From: a virus | Reading direction: 5' to 3' (one strand) | Virus record (IMG/VR): IMGVR_UViG_3300033141_001655 | Span: 1-20,868 of that record | Length of the DNA stretch: 20,868 bases | Shown here: piece after piece, positions 1,048 through 19,950 of the stretch | How the letters are laid out: the number at the start of each line of letters is the position of its first letter | How positions within the stretch are numbered: position 1 is the stretch's first letter | Notes under the pieces: model-generated | What the model was told of the DNA's origin: nothing | Seen by the model: the letters and a program-made list of their open reading frames with translations, nothing else | The model's database searches: none | Position numbers and translations under genes: made by a program

Positions 1048-1304
1048 GAATCAGAATCAGAAAAGGTCGAATCGAGTTTTGGAGAGAGAAGAAACCTCTT
1101 GGTTGGAATGTCTGGACATTCTATTTCAAAAAGAGAGAAAAGATATATGGATATTGGATTTCCATTCCCAAAATAAGAAACGGACATAAGATATTCGAGA
1201 ATACAAAGTTTATATACAAAGAAAATCCGTTTCCGGACAACCCAGAAGTAAAAGCAACACTGGGAGTAAAATTGAAAAAAGAAGATGATATAAGTCGGAG
1301 GTGA
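1044..1304 (+). CDS. Small basic aromatic hypothetical protein
   Basis: This encodes 86 residues, rich in Arg, Lys, Trp, Tyr and Phe, with an alternating beta-strand-like pattern (RIRKGRIEFWREKK, WNVWTFYFKKREKIYGYWI). No known motif is visible. The ATG sits in an ATGA overlap with the stop of the preceding gene and there is no SD, so translation probably depends on reinitiation. The stop TGA (1302-1304) lies inside the strong SD of the next gene. It could be a small beta-barrel or a DNA-mimic-interacting protein, but that is speculation. Gene status rests on the tight overlaps on both sides. Confidence 0.55.
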   Translation: MRIRIRKGRIEFWREKKPLGWNVWTFYFKKREKIYGYWISIPKIRNGHKIFENTKFIYKENPFPDNPEVKATLGVKLKKEDDISRR

Positions 1305-1310
1305 GAAATA

Positions 1311-1613
1311 ATGACAGATCTAAAAAAGATATTTATTAGAGCGAAAGGAGTAGATGGCAAATGGGCGAGTTTTAGTTTGGATGAATTAGTTGAGTTAGAT
1401 TCTTCACCATCCGATCCGTTGGACACTCGACCTGCGGCCAAGCCGGCCTTTGATGGAGTGGGGCAGATCAAGAGATGGTTGATTGATAAGTACATTGATC
1501 ATGTTGGTTTGGAAGAAGGTGCAGCGCTGTCAAAGAAAGAAACAAAGAAAATGATTTCCAGAATTGTTGACGATATGGAGAAGCTAGGCATTACGATCTA
1601 CAAATTGAAGTAA
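1311..1613 (+). CDS. Hypothetical helical protein, last gene of the upstream operon
   Basis: This encodes 100 residues. The N-terminal third has a strand-like stretch (KIFIRAKG, KWASFSLDELVEL), followed by a Pro/Ser/Asp linker (SSPSDPLDTRPAAKP) and a C-terminal helical half (GQIKRWLIDKYIDHVG, KKETKKMISRIVDDMEKLGI). I do not recognise the family. The start is firm: GGAGGTGA at 1297-1304 is a near-perfect SD ending six bases before the ATG. It is the last member of the small-gene row. The following 96 bases hold no gene but carry the terminase promoter, so the transcription unit probably changes here. Confidence 0.65.
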   Translation: MTDLKKIFIRAKGVDGKWASFSLDELVELDSSPSDPLDTRPAAKPAFDGVGQIKRWLIDKYIDHVGLEEGAALSKKETKKMISRIVDDMEKLGITIYKLK

Positions 1614-1644
1614 AAAGATATAAGCGCCTTTGTGTAATCAATTC

Positions 1645-1654
1645 TAACGCGTTA
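1645..1654. repeat. Perfect 10-bp palindrome upstream of terminase
   Basis: TAACGCGTTA is exactly self-complementary and lies in the only sizeable spacer before the terminase genes. It is too short and lacks a U-tract, so it is not an intrinsic terminator. It could be an operator or part of a packaging recognition region, or chance. Confidence 0.3.
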
Positions 1655-1691
1655 TTTCTTCAGAGAGGACTATACCATCATCTTTCCAAAG

Positions 1692-1700
1692 TGTTATAAT
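1692..1700 (+). promoter_or_regulatory. Extended -10 promoter of the terminase small subunit
   Basis: TG-T-TATAAT, with the -10 hexamer at 1695-1700, is a consensus extended -10 element. The ATG follows after nine bases (aaatttact), so the predicted mRNA leader is about three bases or none. No good -35 is visible 16-18 bases upstream, as is usual for extended -10 promoters. Confidence 0.7.
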
Positions 1701-1709
1701 AAATTTACT

Positions 1710-2150
1710 ATGCCCAAGACGGAAAAACCGAAGGGAAGTAAAGAACTTCAAAAGTCTAACAATGGACAAAATTTGACAAAAGAAGATCCACCTTTCAAAC
1801 CAACAAGGAAGATGATTCGGTGGCTTGAAACTACATTGGAATTAGGACATACGGCTTCAATTACAGATATTTCTAAGGAATCAAAAATAAAACGGCAATC
1901 TTGGTATTTATGGTTGCAGGATGATGGCTTTGTCAAGTGGTGGGATGACCAAATGCAAAAGGTTTTGCATCAAAACAGGTGGAAACTAGATGCAATCGGG
2001 TTAAAACAAGCAAAAACTAAGTATAATTTCTGGAAAGACATGATGAATCGTGTCGGAAATACAATTCCGGAGCCAATGAGTATTGGCACACAAGTTAATA
2101 CTCAATTCAATATACCCGATGCCAACTTGGAACGAATTACCAAAAAATAA
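1710..2150 (+). CDS. Putative terminase small subunit (DNA-recognition HTH protein)
   Basis: This encodes 146 residues. A polar, basic N-terminal tail (about 1-30) precedes a helix-turn-helix-like region (about 31-80: KMIRWLETTLELGH, SITDISKESKIKRQSWYLWL) of the kind found in small terminase subunits and phage HTH proteins that read 'W..W..d..F..WW'. The rest is helical and may mediate oligomerisation. Its position directly before the large terminase, overlapping it by about 32 bases, is the main support. In headful or cos packaging the small subunit binds the viral packaging site and hands DNA to the large subunit. There is no SD; an extended -10 box ends nine bases before the ATG, so initiation is probably on a leaderless or near-leaderless mRNA. 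Confidence 0.7.
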   Translation: MPKTEKPKGSKELQKSNNGQNLTKEDPPFKPTRKMIRWLETTLELGHTASITDISKESKIKRQSWYLWLQDDGFVKWWDDQMQKVLHQNRWKLDAIGLKQAKTKYNFWKDMMNRVGNTIPEPMSIGTQVNTQFNIPDANLERITKK

Positions 2151-3639
2151 ACAGATAGAAGTTCGGGAAGCGATGGCTGCTGCTTCCGAAGATCCTATTG
2201 CGTTTATAAATAAATTTCTTTACACCTTTGATCCAAAGCGTGAGCCGTACCATTTGCCGTTTATTCTATTTGATTATCAAGAAGAATTGGTTGAGCAACT
2301 TGTGGATTTTATAGTAACCGGCGAGGATGTATTTGTTGAGAAGTGCCGGGAGATGGGAGTTACCTATGTTACTTTAGCGGTGTTCCTTTGGTTTTGGAGA
2401 TATGTTCCCGGATCTAACTTTCTTCTTGGATCGCGCAAAGAACAGTATGTAGATAATCGGGGCGGATCTGGTGAGGGAGAAGTTAAAAACAAAGAAGAAT
2501 CATTGTTCGGAAAACTAGAATATATGATTGATAGAGTTTTAATGACCTTTCCTTATATCTTGCCGGAACAGTTTAATAAGAAAAAGAATTTTACCTATAT
2601 GTCTTTGATAAATCCGGAGAATGGAAATGTAATATCTGGTGAATCATCAAACCAAAACTTCTCAAGGGGTGGTCGGCACAAAGCAGTTTTATTAGATGAG
2701 TTTGCTTTTTGGGACAATGACACCGCCGCTTGGGGGGCAACTGCCGACACTACTAATTGCCGAATCATTTTAACAACGCCGGGTATTAGACCTTGCAAAG
2801 CAAAACGATTGAGATATGGAAAAGACGGAGAAGAAATAAGCCTGATTACCCTTCCGTATAACTTAGATCCGCGCAAAACCCCGGTATGGCTTGAAAGAGA
2901 GAGGCGCAGAAGATCCGCAGAGGACTTTGCCCGTGAAATTATGATCAATTGGGAGGTTTCAGTCAAAGGCAAAGTGTATCCGGAAATATCAAATGCACTC
3001 TATGGAGTGTTCCCTTACAATCCGGATTGGCCTCTTTATAAATCATGGGACTTTGGACTTGATGGGGTGGCGATTCAATGGTGGCAGAAGAATATGATCA
3101 ATGGGAAAAAGAGATTGGTTGAGGCGTATGAGAATAAAAACCAACCGATTGACTTTTACTTTCCGTTTGACGGCAAAGACATAGATTCAAAGTTTGAGTA
3201 CACCGAAGAAGATTTGGAACTAATTGAGAAAGTCAAAGATTATAAAAAAGCAATTCATTACGGAGATCCAGATGTTTCTAAAAGGTCTTTGATAACCGGC
3301 ACTTCAACACGCCAAGCGTTAAGAAAACAAAAAATATATATTCAGACTAACACCTTGTCCAACGATTTCGTTTCTCGTAGAGAAAAGACTAAGGTGATGC
3401 TTCAGGGTGGGATCGAAGTTAATCAAACGCCGGGAACAGAATACTATATGGAATGTATGAGAAATGCTCGTTACCCTCAGAGAGAAGAACACAGCCAAGC
3501 TACTACACCAATTAGGCTTCCTATCCATGACTGGACAAGCCATCACAGGACATCTACCGAGTTTTTTGCTGTAAACTACAAAGAGCCACCAAAACCTATA
3601 CCGGCAACAGAAGAAGTCATTGAGGACGATCCTTACTAA
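2119..3639 (+). CDS. terL: Terminase large subunit (ATPase and nuclease)
   Basis: This 506-residue motor packages viral DNA into the prohead. The ATPase half shows a Walker-A-like loop KCREMGVTYV (75-84), which is variant because the GKT/S lysine has moved upstream as in many terminases. Walker B plus catalytic Glu are VLLDEF (190-195), followed by a motif III-like ILTTPG (217-222). The RNase-H-like nuclease half has candidate metal-binding Asp residues at SWDFG (D311), YGDPD (D383, D385) and HDW (D471). Length and order match the family. The chosen ATG overlaps the small subunit by 32 bases; a TTG at 2083 and an ATG at 2173 are alternatives, and none has a clear SD. The frame ends in TAA followed by T and the next ATG. 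Confidence 0.92.
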   Translation: MPTWNELPKNKQIEVREAMAAASEDPIAFINKFLYTFDPKREPYHLPFILFDYQEELVEQLVDFIVTGEDVFVEKCREMGVTYVTLAVFLWFWRYVPGSNFLLGSRKEQYVDNRGGSGEGEVKNKEESLFGKLEYMIDRVLMTFPYILPEQFNKKKNFTYMSLINPENGNVISGESSNQNFSRGGRHKAVLLDEFAFWDNDTAAWGATADTTNCRIILTTPGIRPCKAKRLRYGKDGEEISLITLPYNLDPRKTPVWLERERRRRSAEDFAREIMINWEVSVKGKVYPEISNALYGVFPYNPDWPLYKSWDFGLDGVAIQWWQKNMINGKKRLVEAYENKNQPIDFYFPFDGKDIDSKFEYTEEDLELIEKVKDYKKAIHYGDPDVSKRSLITGTSTRQALRKQKIYIQTNTLSNDFVSRREKTKVMLQGGIEVNQTPGTEYYMECMRNARYPQREEHSQATTPIRLPIHDWTSHHRTSTEFFAVNYKEPPKPIPATEEVIEDDPY

Positions 3640-3640
3640 T

Positions 3641-3841
3641 ATGGTAGAACCATTTGTACCAGAAAAACCAGAGAAATATGTAGTAGTGAAAATTACTAAG
3701 AAAGAGGCTGTATTGATCCAAAAGTTAAGAAAATATGCTTTTGGGAAGTTTGTAATACATAAGGCAAACGGTATTTTGACTAGAATTGAGATAAACGACA
3801 GCCAAATGATCGAGGAAGATGTGGAGATAGACTTGGGTTAA
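3641..3841 (+). CDS. Small DUF2292/YezD-like protein
   Basis: This encodes 66 residues. The core, from 'KLRKYAFGKFVIHKANG' to 'ILTRIEINDSQMI', resembles the short DUF2292 (YezD-type) fold, in which a helix leads into two strands reading 'FG.v.i...G.i..Ie'. The match is by eye and should be tested with a profile search. Function of that family is unknown. The ATG is one base after the terminase stop (TAA-T-ATG), with no SD, so translation is probably coupled to the terminase. An in-frame non-ATG start inside the terminase frame was rejected because this junction recurs at five other genes here. The acidic C terminus (EEDVEIDLG) is unremarkable. Confidence 0.6.
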   Translation: MVEPFVPEKPEKYVVVKITKKEAVLIQKLRKYAFGKFVIHKANGILTRIEINDSQMIEEDVEIDLG

Positions 3842-3851
3842 TTTTTTGGTG

Positions 3852-3857
3852 TATAAT
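3852..3857 (+). promoter_or_regulatory. -10 box with leaderless start
   Basis: TATAAT is followed by AAATTT and the ATG at 3864, a six-base discriminator, so transcription should begin at or next to the start codon. No TTGACA-like -35 is seen at standard spacing; G/T-rich bases precede the box. Confidence 0.6.
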
Positions 3858-3863
3858 AAATTT

Positions 3864-4169
3864 ATGTACCCAGATATGCCAATGCACGAAGGAAGGGAGT
3901 TGCCTCAATTTACCCTAAGACAAAATGATTTACCCGATGTTGCGAAGTTAGAAGTTAATGAGGAAAAATATTTAATTGTCAAGGTAAAAATGATCTCCAA
4001 AAGAAACAGGCAGGATATAGAAGCCTCGGAAGAAAAGCAAAAGATTGAAGGTAGATTTCAAATAATGGCAATAAAAGCACTAGGAGATAAGCCGGTTGAT
4101 GCTAAGTCTTTAGAGCGAGAACATTTCGAAAAGACTACTGCTAAGGTATTATCAGGCGAAGTTAAATGA
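3864..4169 (+). CDS. Small hypothetical structural-module protein
   Basis: This encodes 101 residues. The N-terminal 40 residues are Met/Pro-rich (MYPDMPMHEGRELPQF), then a strand-like stretch (KYLIVKVKMISKRN) leads into a charged helical tail (EASEEKQKIEGRFQIMAIKALG, REHFEKTTAKVLSG). I do not recognise the family. The ATG at 3864 is chosen over a TTG six codons upstream because that TTG lies inside the promoter and the -10 box is six bases from this ATG, as at six other genes in the window. The gene ends TGA-T-ATG into the next gene. Confidence 0.6.
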   Translation: MYPDMPMHEGRELPQFTLRQNDLPDVAKLEVNEEKYLIVKVKMISKRNRQDIEASEEKQKIEGRFQIMAIKALGDKPVDAKSLEREHFEKTTAKVLSGEVK

Positions 4170-4170
4170 T

Positions 4171-4467
4171 ATGTCTTACCCAACAGGAACACCAACGGCT
4201 TACAATATAACTCTAACTGTTGCTGATACTGAATACCCTCTAGCACTTCCCTCAAGCACCAGAGAAATAAGATTCCGATGTAGAACCCTCTTTGATGTGA
4301 GATTTGCCTACGAAAAAGATAAGGTTGCCACTCCTACTGCTCCTTACTTAACGCTCCCTGCTGGTTGTGATTATCATTCAGATGAGAGCGAAGTAACAGC
4401 GAAAAGTCTTTACTTTGCCTCTAGTGAAGCCGGGGTTGTTGTTGAAGTTGAAGTTTGGACACCATGA
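4171..4467 (+). CDS. Beta-rich virion protein, likely decoration or fibre-associated
   Basis: This encodes 98 residues, low in Lys and rich in Thr, Ser, Val and aromatic residues, with alternating strand patterns throughout (AYNITLTVADTEYPLAL, REIRFRCRTLFDVRFAY, AGVVVEVEVW). This fits a small beta-sandwich such as a capsid decoration or tail-associated protein, but there is no specific motif. It starts one T after the stop of the previous gene (TGA-T-ATG at 4167-4173). Its stop overlaps the next ATG as ATGA (4464-4467), tying it to the tail-fibre-like gene that follows, perhaps as a partner. Function is inferred from fold-like composition and context only. Confidence 0.6.
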   Translation: MSYPTGTPTAYNITLTVADTEYPLALPSSTREIRFRCRTLFDVRFAYEKDKVATPTAPYLTLPAGCDYHSDESEVTAKSLYFASSEAGVVVEVEVWTP

Positions 4468-5903
4468 AAAGAATATCATCACCATCAATAGGACAGCTTG
4501 ATAAACGCTATGTAAATGTGGAGGATTGGTTTTTAATGCCTCCAGTAGAAGATTGGTATGACCCCACAGATGGGTTGCCAGAAGATCCCGAAATTGGCGA
4601 TAGATATATTTCTGATGCTACCGCAGAAGGTTGGGAAATTGACCATATTTACGAGTGGGATGGTGATGAGTGGATAGAATCAGAGCCAGAGGAAGGGTGG
4701 ATGATATGGATGTTATTTGAACTTATGTTTTATGTTTTCTTTTCTGGCGGGTGGATGGAAGTCGGAAGTGAGTCGTTTGTCAATGTGACTGGCGACACCA
4801 TGACTGGTGATCTAATTTTAAGTGGCGCAAAGCTCATTTCTGATACTGGCGAGCCTTTAACATTGGATAGTGCGACAAACTATATAGATATTGGCGTAAG
4901 CCCTACAAACAACAAACAACTCCGCTTTTATCAAGGAAGCAATGGTACTTCAGGGAACACCTGTCAAATAAGGGCGGACTACGATAACCTGTATATAACT
5001 AACGCCAATGGAAAAATAATGATTGAAAACGCAGCTGACCAGAACCACTCTCTAAGCGTGCAAGAATCTGGAAGCCCTTACGAGAAAATGGACTGGTGGT
5101 TCGATGGCTCAAGTGGTACCGGAACAGGTATATGGATGAGTGCCAATTACAATGCTGGTGATATTAACATGAAACTAGGAGATGCTGATGCCGCTACTTG
5201 GGATTTCAAGATAGTTGATTGGTGGGATAGAGATTTAGTTACTATCAGTTCTTTGGGTGGAGCGCATTTTAATATTCAATCTAAAGATGCTGATTTTATT
5301 ATAGAAGGGAATACTGAGGCCAATTTATTTAGAGTAGATGCAGGAACAGACGAAGTGAGGATGGGAGATTGGGATACTTTAACTGGTACAGCCAGAGTAA
5401 TCAGAGACTTGTGGATTGATGCGGCGGGGATAAAAGCCCCAGGAGCTAAGCCAGCTACTGAAGTTTCTTTTGGAACGCTGGAAACGATGGCTTGGGAGTT
5501 TAGCAATGAGGGAGTAGAAGCTAATCAAGAAAGCGTCAGCTGGCGGATTGCTATCCCCTATGACCTTGATAGAACTGAAGGGGTAATAGTAAGGCTTGGT
5601 TGGAGTTCTGCCTCTGCAGGCAATTGTAAGTGGCAACTAAAATACCGCTGGTTTAGCGAAGATGAGGATATGACACAGGACGGCGAAGAAACGCTAACGG
5701 CGGTAGATGTCGCTTCTTCTACTGCTAATGGATTGGTGGTTACCACCATTGAGGGAATAGACGCCCCTAGTGATACTGACGCTACCATTATGTTCAAATT
5801 AACTAGACTTTCTGCTGATGGTGAAGATACGATTTCTGACACGGTAGAGCTACACGGGATTTGCTTTAACTATACAAGTGATAAGTTGGGAGCAGCAATG
5901 TAA
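4464..5903 (+). CDS. Tail-fibre / receptor-binding-like protein with DUF2793-like N-terminal module
   Basis: This encodes 479 residues. About 30-85 resemble a DUF2793-type module (EIGDRYIS, HIYEWDGDEWIESEPEEGW), followed by a hydrophobic Met/Phe-rich strand (MIWMLFELMFYVFFSGGW, 80-97) that is more likely buried than membrane-spanning. At 107-117 is the fibre repeat motif VNVTGDTMTGD, known from many phage fibres. The middle is glycine- and Asn-rich beta structure. From about 330 a further domain (EVSFGTLETMAWEF, IPYDLDRTEGVIVRLGWSS, ELHGICFNYTSDK) looks like a C-terminal jelly roll. The ATG overlaps the previous stop (ATGA); a TTG three codons upstream is less likely. Such proteins bind host surface glycans. 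Its location between terminase and portal is unusual. Confidence 0.75.
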   Translation: MKRISSPSIGQLDKRYVNVEDWFLMPPVEDWYDPTDGLPEDPEIGDRYISDATAEGWEIDHIYEWDGDEWIESEPEEGWMIWMLFELMFYVFFSGGWMEVGSESFVNVTGDTMTGDLILSGAKLISDTGEPLTLDSATNYIDIGVSPTNNKQLRFYQGSNGTSGNTCQIRADYDNLYITNANGKIMIENAADQNHSLSVQESGSPYEKMDWWFDGSSGTGTGIWMSANYNAGDINMKLGDADAATWDFKIVDWWDRDLVTISSLGGAHFNIQSKDADFIIEGNTEANLFRVDAGTDEVRMGDWDTLTGTARVIRDLWIDAAGIKAPGAKPATEVSFGTLETMAWEFSNEGVEANQESVSWRIAIPYDLDRTEGVIVRLGWSSASAGNCKWQLKYRWFSEDEDMTQDGEETLTAVDVASSTANGLVVTTIEGIDAPSDTDATIMFKLTRLSADGEDTISDTVELHGICFNYTSDKLGAAM

Positions 5904-5916
5904 AGGAGGTGGTAAT

Positions 5917-6153
5917 ATGATAATTTTACTTGAAATACCAGATGCTCAAAAAGACCGAATAATAGACGCTTTTTGTGCTAAATATGATTACGATACTCGT
6001 AAAGCAAAGAGTGAAACAAAAGCACACTTCGCTAAAAGAATACTGTATAGAATTATTAAGAATAATGTTATTTCTTATGAAGCTCAACAGGCCGCAAAAG
6101 AAGCAAGGGATGCTATAATAGAACAAGGTCAAAAAGAAATAGTTTTGGAGTAG
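5917..6153 (+). CDS. Small charged helical phage protein
   Basis: This encodes 78 residues, largely helical: a short hydrophobic strand (MIILLEIP) precedes helices (KDRIIDAFCAKYDYD, ETKAHFAKRILYRIIKNNVI, YEAQQAAKEARDAII). I recall similar short proteins of unknown role in phage structural regions, but cannot assign a function. The start is decided by the strongest SD in the window, AAAGGAGGT at 5902-5910, which overlaps the TAA stop (5901-5903) of the fibre-like gene and lies six bases before this ATG. An upstream in-frame GTG at 5878 is therefore rejected. High translation relative to neighbours is likely. Confidence 0.7.
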   Translation: MIILLEIPDAQKDRIIDAFCAKYDYDTRKAKSETKAHFAKRILYRIIKNNVISYEAQQAAKEARDAIIEQGQKEIVLE

Positions 6154-6190
6154 CGTTGTCAATAAGCTAGGGATAGCGACTTAAAAAATT

Positions 6191-6199
6191 TGCTATAAT
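6191..6199 (+). promoter_or_regulatory. Extended -10 promoter with leaderless start
   Basis: TG-C-TATAAT (hexamer 6194-6199) is followed by five bases (aaaat) and the ATG at 6205. Transcription should start at or within a base of the A of the ATG. The nine-base element is identical to the one before 15188. Confidence 0.7.
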
Positions 6200-6204
6200 A
6201 AAAT

Positions 6205-6558
6205 ATGACCAGAAGAATAAGACGATTAAAACCCAAAAAGATTAAAGGCAAGATTCAGCTTTTGAAGGCACTTCCGTACAAAGGGAACATGATTTATGTC
6301 CGGTGTGTAGATAAGTTTATTTTCGAATATATCGCGGTTTTCAAGAACGAGGTTTATACTAATTATATGGTTATTACTCCACGAAAAGGTCAAACAAAAC
6401 TCAGTAAAGATGAGATGTCCCAATGTGCAGAGTTACTTTGGGCTGGTGGGGAAGCATCAATAGACGCGCTTCTTGGCGTAAAACTCGATAAAAAGAAATC
6501 CGAAATAGTTGAAGCCCTTGAGAAATCACAATTAGGCGCAGAAAAATTACCTAACTAA
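6205..6558 (+). CDS. Hypothetical protein
   Basis: This encodes 117 residues. A basic N-terminal tail (TRRIRRLKPKKIKGK) precedes a strand-rich central part (MIYVRCVDKFIFEYIAVFKNEVYTNYM would be the core, described here in outline) and a helical C terminus with repeated Lys/Glu (KDEMSQCAELLW, DKKKSEIVEALEKSQLG). I do not recognise it. It has its own extended -10 promoter ending five bases before the ATG and no SD. It ends TAA-T-ATG into the next small gene and lies upstream of the portal, so it is probably expressed with the head genes. Confidence 0.6.
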   Translation: MTRRIRRLKPKKIKGKIQLLKALPYKGNMIYVRCVDKFIFEYIAVFKNEVYTNYMVITPRKGQTKLSKDEMSQCAELLWAGGEASIDALLGVKLDKKKSEIVEALEKSQLGAEKLPN

Positions 6559-6559
6559 T

Positions 6560-6712
6560 ATGCCGAAAGCATTTAATGATTGCGTAAAAAGAGGTGGAAG
6601 GGTTCGCTCCAAGCGGATTAGCAAGACGGAATATGTTAAGATTTGTTTTATAGGAGGAAAAAGTTATACCGGGGAAAAGCACACTTATAAAAAGGTTCTA
6701 AAAGGGAAATAA
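6560..6712 (+). CDS. Very small basic protein before the portal
   Basis: This encodes only 50 residues, starting MPKAFNDCVKRGGRVRSKRI and ending KKVLKGK. The pattern 'MPKAF.DCV..GG.VR.K..' followed by 'Y..IC...GKSY.GE.H' resembles short phage proteins of unknown function that I have seen near packaging genes. The start is one T after the upstream stop (TAA-T-ATG), and the TAA at 6710-6712 shares its last base with the portal ATG. These exact junctions are strong evidence that a frame this short is a gene. Two cysteines (C8, C34) are too sparse for a standard zinc knuckle. Confidence 0.7.
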   Translation: MPKAFNDCVKRGGRVRSKRISKTEYVKICFIGGKSYTGEKHTYKKVLKGK

Positions 6713-8679
6713 TGAAAAACAAAACACGATTTATTAAAGAAGAAGGTTTTGACACCACACAAGGTCGGGATACTTTCTTGGATTTGTCCAGACAGGCTCA
6801 AGCAGAATATACTCTTTGTTGGAAAAACCAGAAGCCCAAGAAAGATGAGTATGAAGTCCGTTTGAAGCTCTATAACAACCAGAAACGCGATAAGAAGGCC
6901 GTAGGAGATACTACAATGTTCACGATCCACCAGACAGTCCTTGCTTCTTTATATGTGGATCGGCTTGATGCTGAGTTCGGAGGTCAAGAAGATGGAGATG
7001 AGGATGTTGCCGACAACCTAAACGCTCTTGCTAGAAGCGACTATGACGATATGCAAAAGGATATGGTCGATTACGATTGGGATTGGGACACCTGTTTCTT
7101 TGGTTGGGGAATTATTGATCTTTATGAGTATATCAGAGAACCGGAAAAGAATGTCTTTTTACCTGCTCCTAGAGTTTTAGATCCGATTACATTCCTGAGA
7201 GATCCCGATGCGACTTCCGTGAACGGAGGTTTATTAAAACATGGGGCTGCAAAATTCTTTGGGTATCCGGTGAAGATGACAAAGAGTGAGATGCAGGATC
7301 ATCCCCATATTTTTAGTGATATAGATTTCAAAAATCTTAAATTCGGTTCCGGAACTCAATCTCTCCTTCAAAGTGCAGCCGAAGCAAGAGTTCAAGCACA
7401 GGGAAGGCAGAGTACCCTTAAAGATGAAGCTACAGCAAAACTAGGCGCTAATGCCAGTTACGAAATTACCGTATGGCATACTCATTATAAAATAGACGGC
7501 AAGGTTAAAAAGGTTAGATGCTGGCTGGCAAATGACAGAGCTAAGGTTATCGGGGTTCAAGTCCTCAAAGAAGATTACTGGAAAATTATAAAACGATCAC
7601 TTTATCCTCACTCCCACGATTGGGATGGAACATCAATTCCTGATCTGACAGAAGATAAGCAAAGAGCAAGAGCAGTCGCGGTAAATTTGGGACTAAGAGC
7701 GATGAAAGCGGATCTCTACCCCAATTATCTTTATGATTCAAACAAAATTACTAATCGAAAAGACCTCAAGTTTGGCTTCAATAAGTTCATTCCAGTAGAT
7801 GCAAAAGGCGAACCGATTACCGGTGCGATTATGCCAATGATTAAGTCCAGACCGAATATGCAGTTGCTAGACTTTATTTTTACTACTTTGGCTGTATCGG
7901 CAGAGCGCGCAACCGCAACCCCAGATATTCAACAAGGCGCGCAATCCGAAAAAGATAGACCACTTGGAGAAACAAATCTTATCGCTTCAAGAGTAGATAC
8001 AAGATATTCACTATCCGCAAAGATATTTGGTTGGAGTGAAAGAGATTTTTGGATGATGTGGTATTGGAGCCACAAAGAGAATTTTGCCGATGAGATTGAC
8101 GAGAAGGTATTAAGAATAGTTGGTGCTTTTGGCGCAAAGTGGCGACCTCTAGGAAAACAGGATATTACAACAGACAGGTTTGATCCAGATATAAAGATCG
8201 AAAGCAGAACTGTAAGTCGTGCCAAACAACTTGAGGAAAGGGGTTTGCTAACTGTCTATTTCGGCCTTGCTCTACAAGAACAAACCGCTAATAGAAGATG
8301 GGGACTTAAAAAGCTGGCAAGATTAAACGGCCTTGAAAAAGATGAAATTGACAGACTTTATCCTCCCACAATTGATGAGCGCATAGCAGAAAATCAGAAC
8401 GATTTACTGAGTGAAAATGAAACAGCACCCGTTTTGGCCGAAGATGACCACAATGTTCATTTAGAGATCCATTCTAAGGCCAAGGATACACCGGCAACGA
8501 GGGTTCATATAGAATCACACGAATTTGCGCTTACATTGAAAAAGGTCAAGCCAGAGTTGTTCCCAGAAGAACCAGAAGTGGCTGCTTTCCAGCCGCCTGG
8601 ATCTGAGAAAACATTACCAGTACCGGAGAAACAGGTAAAACCAGTATCGCCAAGTCAAACATCTGCACAACCAAGTTAA
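6712..8679 (+). CDS. Portal protein (P22-like family)
   Basis: This encodes 655 residues, typical of the long portals of short-tailed phages. The N-terminal wing contains an aromatic-acidic stretch (DYDWDWDTCFFGWGIIDLYEY) with the usual 'Tslf..ih..La.ly.d' type segment before it (TTMFTIHQTVLASLYVDRL). The middle has the conserved-looking ERATATPDIQQG and GETNL segments, and later PTIDERIAENQ and the DDHNVHLEIH segment near the C-terminal crown and barrel. The last 50 residues are Pro/Glu-rich and probably disordered. Twelve copies form the ring through which DNA enters and leaves the head. Upstream, AAGGGA (6702-6707) is a weak SD; the ATG shares a base with the previous stop. Family assignment is from recognition by eye. 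Confidence 0.85.
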   Translation: MKNKTRFIKEEGFDTTQGRDTFLDLSRQAQAEYTLCWKNQKPKKDEYEVRLKLYNNQKRDKKAVGDTTMFTIHQTVLASLYVDRLDAEFGGQEDGDEDVADNLNALARSDYDDMQKDMVDYDWDWDTCFFGWGIIDLYEYIREPEKNVFLPAPRVLDPITFLRDPDATSVNGGLLKHGAAKFFGYPVKMTKSEMQDHPHIFSDIDFKNLKFGSGTQSLLQSAAEARVQAQGRQSTLKDEATAKLGANASYEITVWHTHYKIDGKVKKVRCWLANDRAKVIGVQVLKEDYWKIIKRSLYPHSHDWDGTSIPDLTEDKQRARAVAVNLGLRAMKADLYPNYLYDSNKITNRKDLKFGFNKFIPVDAKGEPITGAIMPMIKSRPNMQLLDFIFTTLAVSAERATATPDIQQGAQSEKDRPLGETNLIASRVDTRYSLSAKIFGWSERDFWMMWYWSHKENFADEIDEKVLRIVGAFGAKWRPLGKQDITTDRFDPDIKIESRTVSRAKQLEERGLLTVYFGLALQEQTANRRWGLKKLARLNGLEKDEIDRLYPPTIDERIAENQNDLLSENETAPVLAEDDHNVHLEIHSKAKDTPATRVHIESHEFALTLKKVKPELFPEEPEVAAFQPPGSEKTLPVPEKQVKPVSPSQTSAQPS

Positions 8680-8680
8680 T

Positions 8681-9007
8681 ATGCCAAAGAATTTATTTGA
8701 TACAGACGAAAAAAAGGAACAGGCAATCTCAGCTTTTGGAAGCCTTTTAGAACATCCCGGATGGAAGCTCTTAGTGCAAGTATTGGATCAGGACATAGAA
8801 TCCCTGAGAAATGATTTGGAAACAATAAAAGACGATACTGAAACAAAAGAGCAGATTGATTTACAGAGATACAAATTATCCTTTTGCAAGGAGCATAGGG
8901 ATAAACCAGCAGAGATGATTAAAAAACTACGAAGTGGAGATGAGGCGGAAGTACCTAATCCAGATCCTTTTCCAACCAAAGAAAGTTTGGTTAAAGAAAG
9001 GGCTTGA
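8681..9007 (+). CDS. Small acidic helical protein between portal and scaffold
   Basis: This encodes 108 residues with a long predicted amphipathic helix or coiled coil (WKLLVQVLDQDIESLRNDLE, then KEQIDLQRYKLSFCKEHRDK) and a proline-rich acidic tail (EAEVPNPDPFPTKE). Similar proteins, with 'HPGWKLL...LD..I..L' and a 'K......R..P..mI..L' ending, occur next to portals in other phages, but their role is not known; a head-assembly factor is plausible. It starts one T after the portal stop (TAA-T-ATG). Its own TGA stop (9005-9007) is embedded in the TTGACA -35 box of the scaffold promoter. Confidence 0.65.
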   Translation: MPKNLFDTDEKKEQAISAFGSLLEHPGWKLLVQVLDQDIESLRNDLETIKDDTETKEQIDLQRYKLSFCKEHRDKPAEMIKKLRSGDEAEVPNPDPFPTKESLVKERA

Positions 9008-9032
9008 CAAGATTATTTATAAGACCTACTAT
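9004..9032 (+). promoter_or_regulatory. Promoter of the scaffold-like gene
   Basis: TTGACA at 9004-9009, 17 bases, then TACTAT at 9027-9032. The -35 contains the stop codon of the previous gene. The predicted start near 9039 leaves about 16 bases of leader, enough for the SD AAAGGA at 9042-9047, seven bases before the ATG. Confidence 0.65.
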
Positions 9033-9054
9033 TAAATAGCTAAAGGAAAAACCT

Positions 9055-9732
9055 ATGCCAGAGCCAGAAAACAACCCCCCAGAATTAGTTTTAGAAGAAG
9101 TAGTTGAAGTATCCCCTGAAGAACTTTCCGAAGATCAAACAACTTATCTCCGAGAAAATGTTGATGATTTAACAGACGAGCAAAAGGTAACATTCAAAGA
9201 AGTTCTTGAAGAAGAAGAAGAAGAAATAGATTTGGACAAGGTAAAGCCGGAAAGCCGTGTCCCCAAGAAGAAGAAACCTGCCGAACCTACCGAACCCGAA
9301 GATGATGATGACGAAACTGCTCCAGAGGATAAAGCAGTCATTGATAAGAGGGTTGATCAGAGAGTTAAGCCACTAGAGGAGAAAATAGATGCTCAAGCTA
9401 AACGCGCCCAAAAATTAGCGGATGAAGGAGAAGTTGATGCTTTCATAAGAGGCAAGCCGGAATTTGCAAAGTATCGCGGTGTAGCTCTTAAATATATGGG
9501 ACATTCAGCTTACTCTAATATTCCAGTTCATAATATTATGGCGATAGTCGCGAAAGAGGATTTGCAAAAAATGGGTGCAAAAAAAGAGAGAGATGCCAGA
9601 AAGAAAACTGATGATACAAAAAGTCCCGGCGGATCAGTTAGAAAACCGGGTGAAGGAAAAATAGATTGGAGCAAGGCAAGTAAAGAGGAAGTTGAAGCCC
9701 ACAGAGCCAAAGTTTTAGGACAACAGGGCTAG
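9055..9732 (+). CDS. Putative capsid scaffolding protein
   Basis: This encodes 225 residues. The first 100 are strongly acidic and low-complexity (EEEEEIDLDK, EPEDDDDETAPED) with one basic island (RVPKKKKP). The middle is helical (VIDKRVDQRVKPLEEKIDAQ) and the C terminus is basic (KKERDARKK) ending in WSKASKEEVEAHRAKVLG, a helix-turn-helix-like tail. Acidic helical proteins placed between portal and major capsid protein, with a basic C-terminal coat-binding tail, are typically scaffolding proteins, which guide prohead assembly and then leave. There is no protease domain. The promoter and SD in front give it an independent expression signal, as expected for a protein needed in high copy. The call is from composition and position. 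Confidence 0.75.
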   Translation: MPEPENNPPELVLEEVVEVSPEELSEDQTTYLRENVDDLTDEQKVTFKEVLEEEEEEIDLDKVKPESRVPKKKKPAEPTEPEDDDDETAPEDKAVIDKRVDQRVKPLEEKIDAQAKRAQKLADEGEVDAFIRGKPEFAKYRGVALKYMGHSAYSNIPVHNIMAIVAKEDLQKMGAKKERDARKKTDDTKSPGGSVRKPGEGKIDWSKASKEEVEAHRAKVLGQQG

Positions 9733-15187: not shown

Positions 15188-17392
15188 ATGGCAACAGAAA
15201 ACGAATACTCAGTTAGTTTAGATGGTAATGATGCGGTTTCCATGACCGACCACGCAGATTTAGCTCCGACAGGTGATTTTACAGTTGGTGTATGGATGAA
15301 AACTTCTAACACAAATACCCAAATTATCATTGCCAATTATTATTTTGATGACCCACTTACTACAAGATATGGATGGTATTTGGCAATAGATACTACTGGT
15401 AAAGCTAGGTTTAATAGTGCAAAAGGTACTGGAAATGTTCCAGATACGGATTATAAAAATCTTACTTCCACAGGGCTTCTTATTGATGATGGTAAGTGGC
15501 ATTTTGTCGTTGCTACTTGGGATGGAAGCGATATGAATATTTATGTTGATGGGATTTTAGATGCGACTGTTGCCTGGGCTAACGCCCCTGGATACTGGAC
15601 TACAAAATATCCAAGAATAGGTTGTTCTCATATTGAAACGGGTGATGGAACTTTCTTTGATGGTAATATAGACGGGGCTTTTATTGTTAATGGCACAGCC
15701 CTCACCCAAGCAGAAATAGTAGAAATGATGCTCCAAAAAGCAAATACGACATTACTTCCTAACTTAAAAGCATATTACGAATTTGAAAACGGATTAACAG
15801 ATACTTCAGGAAGCACAAACACCCACAATGGCTCTGCGATAGGTACTCCCACTTATGATTCAGGAGCAGATGATGTTCCTTTTACTTATTATTTAGAGAG
15901 TACAGATAATTTGGCTTCTGTTGATTTAGAATTATCTTCTTCGCAATATGCTTATCATGCCGACAATGCTTCCCTCTCAATAACAGGAGATTTCACAGTA
16001 GAAGCGTGGATTAAATTAGAACAATTACCAACAACTGCAGAAAGTGCTTTCACTATTGTTTCAAAATATAGAACATCAGCAACAGCCCTTCGTTCTTATG
16101 TAGTTATGTTATATCCAACGGACAAATTGGATATTTTCTATTCCAATGACGGAACAAATACTACAAGAATAGAAACAGATGCGGTTATTGTTGATAGTAA
16201 TGATGTTGGAAAGTGGGTACATATTGCTTGTGCTGTAGATGTTTCCGCTAAAAGTGCAGCCATTTACAAGAATGGAACTTTAGTTGCTAGTTCTTTAGAG
16301 GCTGGTACTCAAACTTCTATTCAAGATAATGCTTCAGTATTTTGTATAGGTGCTAATAATGAGGGAAATTCCGATTTATTTGATGGCAAAATTGACGATG
16401 TCAGGCTTTGGAATGACATCCGTACAGCCACAGAAATCAGAGAAAATATGAATATTATTGTTCCTTCTGATTCAGCAAACCTTGTGTCTAATTGGTTGCT
16501 TAATACCGACTACACAGATGAAACCTCAAACGGAAATGATTTAACACCTGTAAACTCTCCTATCTTTGTTCCCGACCAAGCCTTTGATGTAGCAAACAGA
16601 CATTCAATGGACTTAGAATTAAGTAGTTCTGAATATGCTTCTATTACTGATGGAAACCAATCAGGATTAGACTTAAATTCAGATTTTACAATAGAGGCGT
16701 GGATTAAATTAGAACAATTACCTTCAACGGCTGGAACAGCTTTTGAAATAGTATCTAAATATGGATGGACTGGTGCTAACAAGCGTCAATATACTGTAAC
16801 AATTAGGACTTCTAACAAAATGAGAGTTTATTGGAGTAATGGCACAGTTACTTCGTATGTAGAATGTGATACGGCTTTTGACGCAGGGGATGTCGGAGCT
16901 TGGAATCATGTAGCCGTAGCTGTTGATCTTTCTGCTCAAACTGCCGCATTTTACATAAATGGCTCTGCACAATCTACCACTCCTACTCCTGCTGGAGCAA
17001 CTTCCATTGCGAATAGTACCGATCCCTTTGTGATAGGGGCTGTTAATGCTTCTGCTGCTGTTCAGTTTTTTGATGGACAAATAAACGATGTCCGTGTTTG
17101 GAATGATATTAGAAGTGAAGCAGAAATACAAGACAATATGGATGTAATTCTTGATGGAGATGAAGCTAATTTAGTTTCTTGTTGGAGACTAAATAACAAC
17201 TACGCAGATATAACCTCAAACGGAAATCACCTTACGCCTGTAAATACGCCTACTTTTAATTGGATTGTTCCTTATGATGGCGGGATAGGGTTTTACAGCA
17301 AAAGCCTAACCGAAACGATTACAATAACCGATTCGTTGGCTAAATTCCCTAAGAGAACTTTCCTAGAATCAGTTTCCATAGTAGAAGCCTAA
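15188..17392 (+). CDS. LamG-repeat adhesin, N-terminal part of a split gene
   Basis: This encodes 734 residues with three concanavalin/LamG-like domains at about 5-235, 240-468 and 472-700. Each has the signature order 'DFTVxxWxK', 'KWHFVVATWDG' or 'KWVHIACAVD', 'YKNGTLV' or 'YINGSAQ', 'FDGKIDDVRLWN' and 'LVSNWLLN'. Domains two and three are recent copies: a 26-base identity (at 16004 and 16697) and the 'ETSNGNDLTPVN' block repeat at a 690-693 base spacing. Such domains bind glycans on cell surfaces. After domain three, SLTETITITDSLAK starts a 20-residue repeat that continues in the next frame. The stop at 17390-17392 is created by the 83-bp tandem duplication. Own extended -10 promoter, no SD. 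Confidence 0.85.
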   Translation: MATENEYSVSLDGNDAVSMTDHADLAPTGDFTVGVWMKTSNTNTQIIIANYYFDDPLTTRYGWYLAIDTTGKARFNSAKGTGNVPDTDYKNLTSTGLLIDDGKWHFVVATWDGSDMNIYVDGILDATVAWANAPGYWTTKYPRIGCSHIETGDGTFFDGNIDGAFIVNGTALTQAEIVEMMLQKANTTLLPNLKAYYEFENGLTDTSGSTNTHNGSAIGTPTYDSGADDVPFTYYLESTDNLASVDLELSSSQYAYHADNASLSITGDFTVEAWIKLEQLPTTAESAFTIVSKYRTSATALRSYVVMLYPTDKLDIFYSNDGTNTTRIETDAVIVDSNDVGKWVHIACAVDVSAKSAAIYKNGTLVASSLEAGTQTSIQDNASVFCIGANNEGNSDLFDGKIDDVRLWNDIRTATEIRENMNIIVPSDSANLVSNWLLNTDYTDETSNGNDLTPVNSPIFVPDQAFDVANRHSMDLELSSSEYASITDGNQSGLDLNSDFTIEAWIKLEQLPSTAGTAFEIVSKYGWTGANKRQYTVTIRTSNKMRVYWSNGTVTSYVECDTAFDAGDVGAWNHVAVAVDLSAQTAAFYINGSAQSTTPTPAGATSIANSTDPFVIGAVNASAAVQFFDGQINDVRVWNDIRSEAEIQDNMDVILDGDEANLVSCWRLNNNYADITSNGNHLTPVNTPTFNWIVPYDGGIGFYSKSLTETITITDSLAKFPKRTFLESVSIVEA
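16004..16029 (+). repeat. Exact 26-base repeat shared by LamG domains two and three (second copy 16697-16722)
   Basis: The same 26 bases, encoding AWIKLEQLP, occur 693 bases apart at 16004-16029 and 16697-16722. A further block encoding TSNGN and TPVN recurs at 16524 and 17214, 690 bases apart. The spacing equals one domain, indicating in-frame duplication of a whole LamG unit. Confidence 0.8.
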
Positions 17393-17468
17393 CCGAAACG
17401 ATTACAATAACCGATTCGTTGGCTAAATTCCCTAAGAGAACTTTCCTAGAATCAGTTTCCATAGTAGA
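17302..17468 (+). repeat. Perfect 83-bp tandem duplication that shifts the reading frame
   Basis: Bases 17302-17385 are identical to 17385-17468, an 84-base match at period 83. Because 83 is not a multiple of three, the second copy is read in another frame and the first open frame ends at TAA 17390-17392. Removing one unit joins the two frames into a single 1074-residue protein, with SIV followed by DSVDRTK. Confidence 0.95.
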
Positions 17469-18010
17469 TTCAGTCGATAGGACAAAAATTGCGGTTAAGG
17501 ATTTGTCCGAAACAATAACAATTACAGATAAAAATACTTACTATTTTGATATTTCTGATGGTGGTGCAACTGATGCCGATGCTGTTTGGACAGACCCTGA
17601 TAGTGATGTCTTTGACGGAAGTACTTTAACTTATTCTCAAGGTGCTACTGCTGGAAGCACATCTTCGAATTTCTTGTTTGGGGCTGGAACTAGTGCACCA
17701 ACAAGCGGAAATACAATTACTCAAGTTAGAGCAAGAATTTATGCCTACAATGCAGGGACAACGACATCTGCTGCAATATATACCGATGGACTTGGAGAAC
17801 TTTTAGGAACTCCTACAAATAATAATTCAACCGGTGGTGGTAGTTGGGATAGTTACGCCACATTATCTACACCGGCTGGTGGATGGACTTGGCAAAAAGT
17901 CAATGATTTAGAAGTAAAAGTATATACATCTGGGAATTTCTCAAATGTTTATAAAGTAGAAATAGAAGTTGTAGCTCTTGGGGGGTCTGTAATTAAGAAA
18001 GTAAATAAGG

Positions 18011-18350
18011 CTCAAAAAGAAACGATAACAACTACTGATGCCCTTGCAAAGAAAACATCCCGGGGACTTTCAGAGACGATAGCTATTGTAGAAACATTTG
18101 CCAAGTCAAAAATTGCCATCAGGGGATTCTTGGAAACAATTACACTCACAGATATTTTTGCGAGAGCAGTTACCTATGCCAGAACCCTAACTGAAACGAT
18201 TACTCTCACAGATACTTTTACGAAGATGGCTACTTTTGTCAAAAGTCTTACGGAAACAATCACAATCGCCGAAACATTTGCTAAATTGCAAACTCATATT
18301 AGAACTTTCACCGAAACGATTACAATACATGATAAGATTAGAAGGTATCT
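18011..18350 (+). repeat. Six 60-base (20-residue) ETIT repeats
   Basis: The encoded units have the pattern [L/F]-x-E-T-I-x-[I/L]-x-[D/E]-x-[F/I]-x-[K/R], at a regular 20-residue period for the middle units. Related units precede the inserted domain (around 17300-17540). A repeated-strand stalk is the likely structure. Confidence 0.8.
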
Positions 18351-18393
18351 CAATGGCCTTTTGGTCAGCATTTGGAGTAAGATAGAGAAACAA

Positions 18394-18441
18394 ACAACAA
18401 CATTTACTAAGAGTGCGAAGCCGACAACAACATTTACTAAG
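18394..18441 (+). repeat. Two exact 18-base repeats, 30 bases apart
   Basis: ACAACAACATTTACTAAG occurs at 18394-18411 and 18424-18441. It encodes the TTTFTK units of a C-terminal 'TTTFTK..KP' tail, related to the Thr/Trp/Lys/Pro repeats seen at the ends of some phage structural proteins. Confidence 0.75.
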
Positions 18442-18498
18442 GTGGTAAAATCATTGACAGATATTTGGACTAAAAGCGAAAAACCAGAAGCCTAAATT

Positions 18499-19950
18499 AT
18501 GCCTAAACAACAATCAAACCTAATTCCAATTGAGGACTTCAACCTAGGGGGACTAGCCCATTCAAAGTGGTCGGGTGTTAAGAATTCTCTCTATAAGTTA
18601 ATCGGATGGGATCTACATTCAACTCCGGGACTTCTAAAAGTAGCCCAAAAAATGACTAAAGAAACTAGCGGATCGCCACCTACGGAATTTTGCAAAGCCA
18701 GAGTAAATTCTTCAAATGGCGCTCAATATTGGGGTAGTTCCACAAGTGGTAAGATCTGGGAACGCCCTGCCACCGGAACTTGGCGCTTAGTCCATACTGT
18801 TACCCCTGCTGCCGGTGAAGCCAAGATTCTTGAGATGAAAGAATATCAAGGATATATTTATGTTGTTACTGAAAGTAGAGTTCATAGGATCTTAGTTTCA
18901 GAGGCAGGTGATAATACTTGGAATGCTGACCTTACCGAAGATTGGGCTACTTTTGATGTTACAGATAGCGACCTTCATCCAATGTTTGTTCATCCAAAAA
19001 CACTTGTTCTCTATATCGGCGATGGCAACCAACTCGCTCAAGTTGATGGAAACACCTTTACTGCCAATGCCCTCGATATTAAAACTCCTCTTAGAATTAA
19101 ATCTCTTGGGAAAATAGGTCAGGATATTTTACTTGGTACTTATGTTGCCGATACTGTTACTCAGACAGAAATCATACGCTGGAACACCTATTCTGTTAGT
19201 TTTACTACCTCAGATACAATTCCCGAAGTCGGGATCAATGCCTTTTTGCCAGCAGATAATTTCGTTATTGTTCAGGCAGGGAATCAGGGAAATCTTTATT
19301 ATTATGATGGCGAGAGATTAGAGGAATATCTAAAAATTCCCGGTGATTATTCTCCTACTGCTTATGGTGAGATCTATCCCACAGCAGTTGGCAACTTGGG
19401 AGGAAAGATACTTTTTGGCTTCTCAAATGGTTCAGGAAATCCAGCAGATCAAGGAATCTACCAAATCGCCAGAAGTACGCGAGATCATCCTTATATACTC
19501 GATATGCCCTACCCTACCTCTGTACGCTCTGACGATGCTCTGGTGCTAACTGACACAGAAATAGGAGGGATATTAGTAGTTGGGACTGATGTTTACGCCT
19601 CTTATAAAAATGGCGCTAATATCGGAATTGATAAATTAGATTATAGCAATAAATTAGAAGTAGCCTATCTTGAAACTAGGGTGATGATTGTCAATAGAGA
19701 ACAATTTTCTACTTTCTCAAAGTTTGTAGTAGCCTATGCAGATATGCCGGATGATACTGCTATCGAAATTCAGTACGAAAAGAATTATGCTGATGAATTT
19801 ACGGGAACAACGGAAAAAACGGATACCAGCAAGAACATTGTTTTTGCAGAGGAAGGCGTAGATGCAACAACCTTGCGATTAAAAATATTGCCGACAGTCA
19901 ATGATAATGATGCACCTACAATCGAAAGCGCCGGAGTTTTTGTAAGTTAA
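18499..19950 (+). CDS. Beta-propeller-like tail nozzle or tail protein
   Basis: This encodes 483 residues. The N terminus (LIPIEDFNLGGLAHSKWSGV, then SLYKLIGWDLHSTPGLLKV) resembles proteins that begin with a 'GG.a.s...g..nS...l.g.dihs.PG.l' segment and continue as a propeller. Repeated blade-like strands follow (RVNSSNGAQYWGSSTSGKIWE, LEMKEYQGYIYVVTESRVHRI, TLVLYIGDGNQLAQVDGN, NFVIVQAGNQGNLYYYDG, KILFGFSNGSGNPADQGIYQ, GGILVVGTDVYASYKNG). In short-tailed phages the tail nozzle (P22 gp10) is a propeller at this genome position; homology here is by pattern only. A C-terminal beta domain (about 395-483) follows. The ATG is three bases after the preceding stop, with no SD. Confidence 0.65.
   Translation: MPKQQSNLIPIEDFNLGGLAHSKWSGVKNSLYKLIGWDLHSTPGLLKVAQKMTKETSGSPPTEFCKARVNSSNGAQYWGSSTSGKIWERPATGTWRLVHTVTPAAGEAKILEMKEYQGYIYVVTESRVHRILVSEAGDNTWNADLTEDWATFDVTDSDLHPMFVHPKTLVLYIGDGNQLAQVDGNTFTANALDIKTPLRIKSLGKIGQDILLGTYVADTVTQTEIIRWNTYSVSFTTSDTIPEVGINAFLPADNFVIVQAGNQGNLYYYDGERLEEYLKIPGDYSPTAYGEIYPTAVGNLGGKILFGFSNGSGNPADQGIYQIARSTRDHPYILDMPYPTSVRSDDALVLTDTEIGGILVVGTDVYASYKNGANIGIDKLDYSNKLEVAYLETRVMIVNREQFSTFSKFVVAYADMPDDTAIEIQYEKNYADEFTGTTEKTDTSKNIVFAEEGVDATTLRLKILPTVNDNDAPTIESAGVFVS

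Follow-up and report, generated by a model that had tools for sequence, protein, structure and literature searches.

The window analysed here, an entire IMG/VR record of 20,868 bases classed as linear, contains an exact 83-base tandem duplication that cuts a long lectin-like structural gene (15188-18495, plus strand) in two, at a TAA codon within the second copy. An assembly error or a one-off loss mutation is most likely the origin of this duplication, and a reversible genetic switch is unlikely. A short-read assembly artefact is the favoured reading; it is not proven, and we consider its chance of being correct to be about even.

The duplicated unit and the split gene

Positions 17302-17385 are identical to positions 17385-17468, which corresponds to 84 matches at a period of 83. 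The first copy of the unit occupies 17302-17384 and the second 17385-17467 (both on the plus strand; position 17468 matches too and adds one base), and immediately beyond the repeat the bases mismatch, A/G at the left flank and A/T at the right. TRF returned a period of 83, 2.0 copies, 100% match and a score of 334, so that the identity claimed in the initial annotation was confirmed both in this way and by direct sequence comparison. An exact match of 84 bases at such a spacing cannot have arisen by chance; in the rest of the window, the sole other exact match to the unit of at least 13 bases was one of 18 bases (17309 against 18310).

Since 83 = 3n+2, the unit shifts the reading frame. The frame change and the premature TAA reported earlier were both found, the latter at 17390-17392 in the second copy, where it closes an upstream frame of 734 aa (15188-17392, plus strand) containing three LamG (concanavalin A-like lectin) stretches (Pfam Laminin_G_3, E=3.9e-73). 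The downstream frame (17419-18495, plus strand), whose first listed start is indeed the TTG at 17419, comprises a short array, a beta-domain, an ETIT-type array and the conserved tail YLNGLL...WTK; it matched no Pfam or PHROG family. This frame is free of stops from 17353 to 18492, the two frames overlap by 37 bases (17353-17389), and the second copy, read in the downstream frame, continues directly into the next array repeats. The length of 1074 residues predicted after removal of one unit is arithmetically correct, being (3308-83)/3 minus the stop. The repeat pattern said to run across the join does continue there, but with spacings of 18 and then 20 residues and not strictly of 20.

The gene lies among virion genes (terminase, portal, capsid) and encodes LamG stretches, both of which are features of a tailed-phage structural protein with LamG domains; the terms 'adhesin' and 'host range' applied to it initially have no basis other than these two features.

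Relatives of the gene and of the phage

The next gene (18499-19950, plus strand) has relatives in L083-L086 with 53-57% best-segment identity, and in L002, L083 and L084 a gene of this type comes immediately after one for a repeat protein in a single frame. Two of these contigs, L002 and L084, carry, at the position of the gene of the window, a structural phage protein of modular kind with LamG domains and a short repeat array. The ETIT-type array and the tail YLNGLL...WTK share a single open frame in L328 (243 aa), L371 (253 aa), L372 (249 aa) and L380 (926 aa), and L370 has the beta-domain seen in the downstream frame within one frame of 672 aa. A modular family of phage proteins could be recognized in L328, L371, L372, L380 and the window (17500-18495), in which variable lectin or beta-domains are set in an array of approximately 20-residue repeats followed by the conserved tail.

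Each of these relatives is encoded in one frame, whereas the copy in the window is in two pieces, and the tandem-duplication scan described below detected no 83-base tandem repeat in L002, L083, L084, L328, L370, L371, L372 or L380. Since the relatives are in single open frames and lack the repeat, the split state of the window is derived. The tail that would be lost by the truncation is conserved in all of the array relatives.

As to the comparison of unit number among related contigs, proposed in the initial annotation, no other contig with the unit was found and the one near-identical contig stops before the repeat. An exact 24-mer of the unit was found nowhere else across all IMG/VR contigs, a search from which records very near the window may have been excluded. 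Over 8.6 kb, the near-identical contig, L088, is distinguished from the window by 5 substitutions and a single in-frame indel of 36 bases; it spans only positions 1083-9660 of the window, ends 7.6 kb short of the repeat and is therefore silent on it.

The phage is a tailed one, encoding an SU10-type portal, a Phage_capsid_4 capsid protein and a terminase, and a DNA search against annotated phages gave no match. The closest relatives of the terminase (2083-3639) in cellular assemblies were found in Moraniibacteriota and Saccharibacteria MAGs (L265, L266) at about 60% identity, and one further, partial match came from a cyanobacterial MAG in the bacterial and archaeal genome collection. Judging from these terminase relatives, the phage probably infects a member of Patescibacteria.

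Assembly or mutation as the source of the duplication

A scan of 5.7 Mb of viral DNA (about 5.0 Mb non-redundant) for perfect tandem duplications, with the period set to 40-400 and the identity run required to equal or exceed it, yielded 17. Of the 17 periods, 14 were divisible by 3, which is to be expected if duplications that break the frame are removed by selection. The three remaining periods were 43 (L298, intergenic), 55 (L034, in a gene) and 83 (the window, in a gene). In L034 (5574-5685), the exact 55-base duplication has an identity run of 57, i.e. two extra bases; it shifts the frame near the end of a small phage gene, altering the last residues only, and it could be a tolerated real mutation.

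The k values published for MEGAHIT in JGI-type metagenome assemblies are 23, 43, 63, 83, 103 and 123 (PMC6081815, PMC5839234, PMC6243002), and those for JGI SPAdes are 33, 55, 77, 99 and 127 (PMC6243002). The duplications of the window and of L034 share three properties, namely almost no identity past one unit, a shifted frame and a period equal to a published k; these are two events noticed post hoc, and only that of L034 is independent, the window having prompted the scan. In the window the repeat run is 84 against a published k of 83, the lists being taken from published pipelines that may not be the one used for this record. The period-43 repeat of L298 was discounted as support, although 43 is in the MEGAHIT list, because it is intergenic and its run of 61 overshoots the unit by 18 bases.

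A period of 83 with one extra base of identity is what would be expected if an overlap of length k had been retained twice, and the agreement of the period with a published assembler k favours the artefact over a loss mutation. Two contig pieces sharing an 83-base overlap, k at that stage of the assembly, would have been joined with the overlap left uncollapsed, and the faulty join would have fallen in the stretch of the gene that is variable and bears repeats. The real phage gene would then be one continuous frame, with LamG lectin-like domains, the repeat array and the conserved tail. The exact repeat, the frame break, the uninterrupted frames of the relatives and the agreement of the period with published k values were observed; the join in software, and the step at which it may have occurred, we infer. 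Overlap artefacts of k-mer length are known for de Bruijn graph assemblers at the ends of circular contigs. Like the repeat of the window, they are exact direct repeats as long as a standard k and share hardly any identity outside that length, but the repeat described here is internal to a linear contig, and nothing specific on internal duplications of length k was found in the literature on metagenome assemblies. It also counts against the artefact that many odd numbers are used as k somewhere and that the software step was not reproduced. If the duplication is an artefact, it offers a practical caution: perfect two-copy, frame-breaking repeats of assembler-k length in collections of viral contigs call for suspicion first and a proposal of phase variation only afterwards.

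A real and recent one-off tandem duplication in the phage population, which would truncate the lectin-like protein and produce a loss or partial-loss allele and no switch, is a serious rival with a probability somewhat below one half. The two copies are without any difference, which would make the duplication recent, and the gene is variable and modular, so that damage to it may be tolerated. Moreover, other small indels occur in the same phage population. The 36-base indel at about 5375 of the window (4293-4328 in L088), separating contigs that are otherwise 99.9% identical, is real small-scale variation of the phage; it is flanked by a 3-base ACT repeat and falls within a gene that matches DUF2793 weakly. 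Against a one-off mutation, the breakpoints of the one-unit allele have only one base of exact homology and there is no unusual hairpin, hence no evident slippage substrate; the part removed includes the tail conserved in all array relatives; and the period equals an assembler k. Slippage driven by a hairpin was rejected, the fold showing nothing unusual, and so was misregister of the array repeats, since the natural period of the array is about 60 bases, of which the 83-base unit is neither one period nor a multiple, and its ends are out of register with the repeats. If real, the duplication is a single loss mutation, affecting a phage lectin gene that is variable.

Switching and two-frame expression

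The initial annotation had offered a switch, a loss mutation and an artefact as three options. The artefact has gained from the agreement of the period with a published k and the loss mutation remains its rival, while the evidence is against the switch. A reversible slip or recombination switch, in which loss of the unit would turn the full-length protein on and gain of the unit would turn it off, must be considered very improbable. Long direct repeats can shed a unit by slippage or recombination, the loss of one of two long units being easy, and a receptor-binding role is plausible for the gene. However, the one-unit state has a single base of homology from which the unit could be regained, so that regain would be an ordinary rare duplication and would not proceed at a switch-like rate. 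The unit is also out of register with the protein-repeat period of about 60 bases, and the array therefore provides no template for regain. Fast reversal in phase variation calls for a repeat in both the on and the off state, and one base of homology is all that the one-unit state of the window offers. The intact single-frame array relatives are all without repeated units, and no variation in unit number was found, the unit occurring in no other viral contig of a search from which records very near the window may be missing. As in slipped-strand phase variation at bacterial contingency loci, a tandem repeat lies in a likely surface-binding gene and unit number sets the frame; those loci, however, consist of many short units, whereas the window has two long ones and a one-unit state without any repeat, from which there would be no high-rate return. 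Just as improbable is a ratchet-like on-switch for receptor binding in a Patescibacteria phage, by which one-unit and two-unit forms would coexist and loss of the unit would restore the full-length lectin-like protein at a high rate.

It is equally doubtful that the two frames are functional and stably kept, whether through translation of a second protein that starts at TTG 17419 or through programmed -1 frameshifting within their 37-base overlap. The frames do overlap, and the array is a small, free-standing gene of about 250 aa in L328, L371 and L372; those genes, however, have their own start region, MYGGNE(F/Y)GS.PYG, which is absent from the second frame of the window. When the sequence was read directly, the TTG was seen to lack a Shine-Dalgarno-like sequence upstream, and the overlap to lack an X XXY YYZ heptamer, which leaves programmed -1 frameshifting without a visible signal.

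A related 20-residue repeat array in L087 (8100-8600) extends over all three frames, perhaps owing to sequencing errors; it was rejected as a parallel case, since small frame shifts, rather than a duplication, split it.
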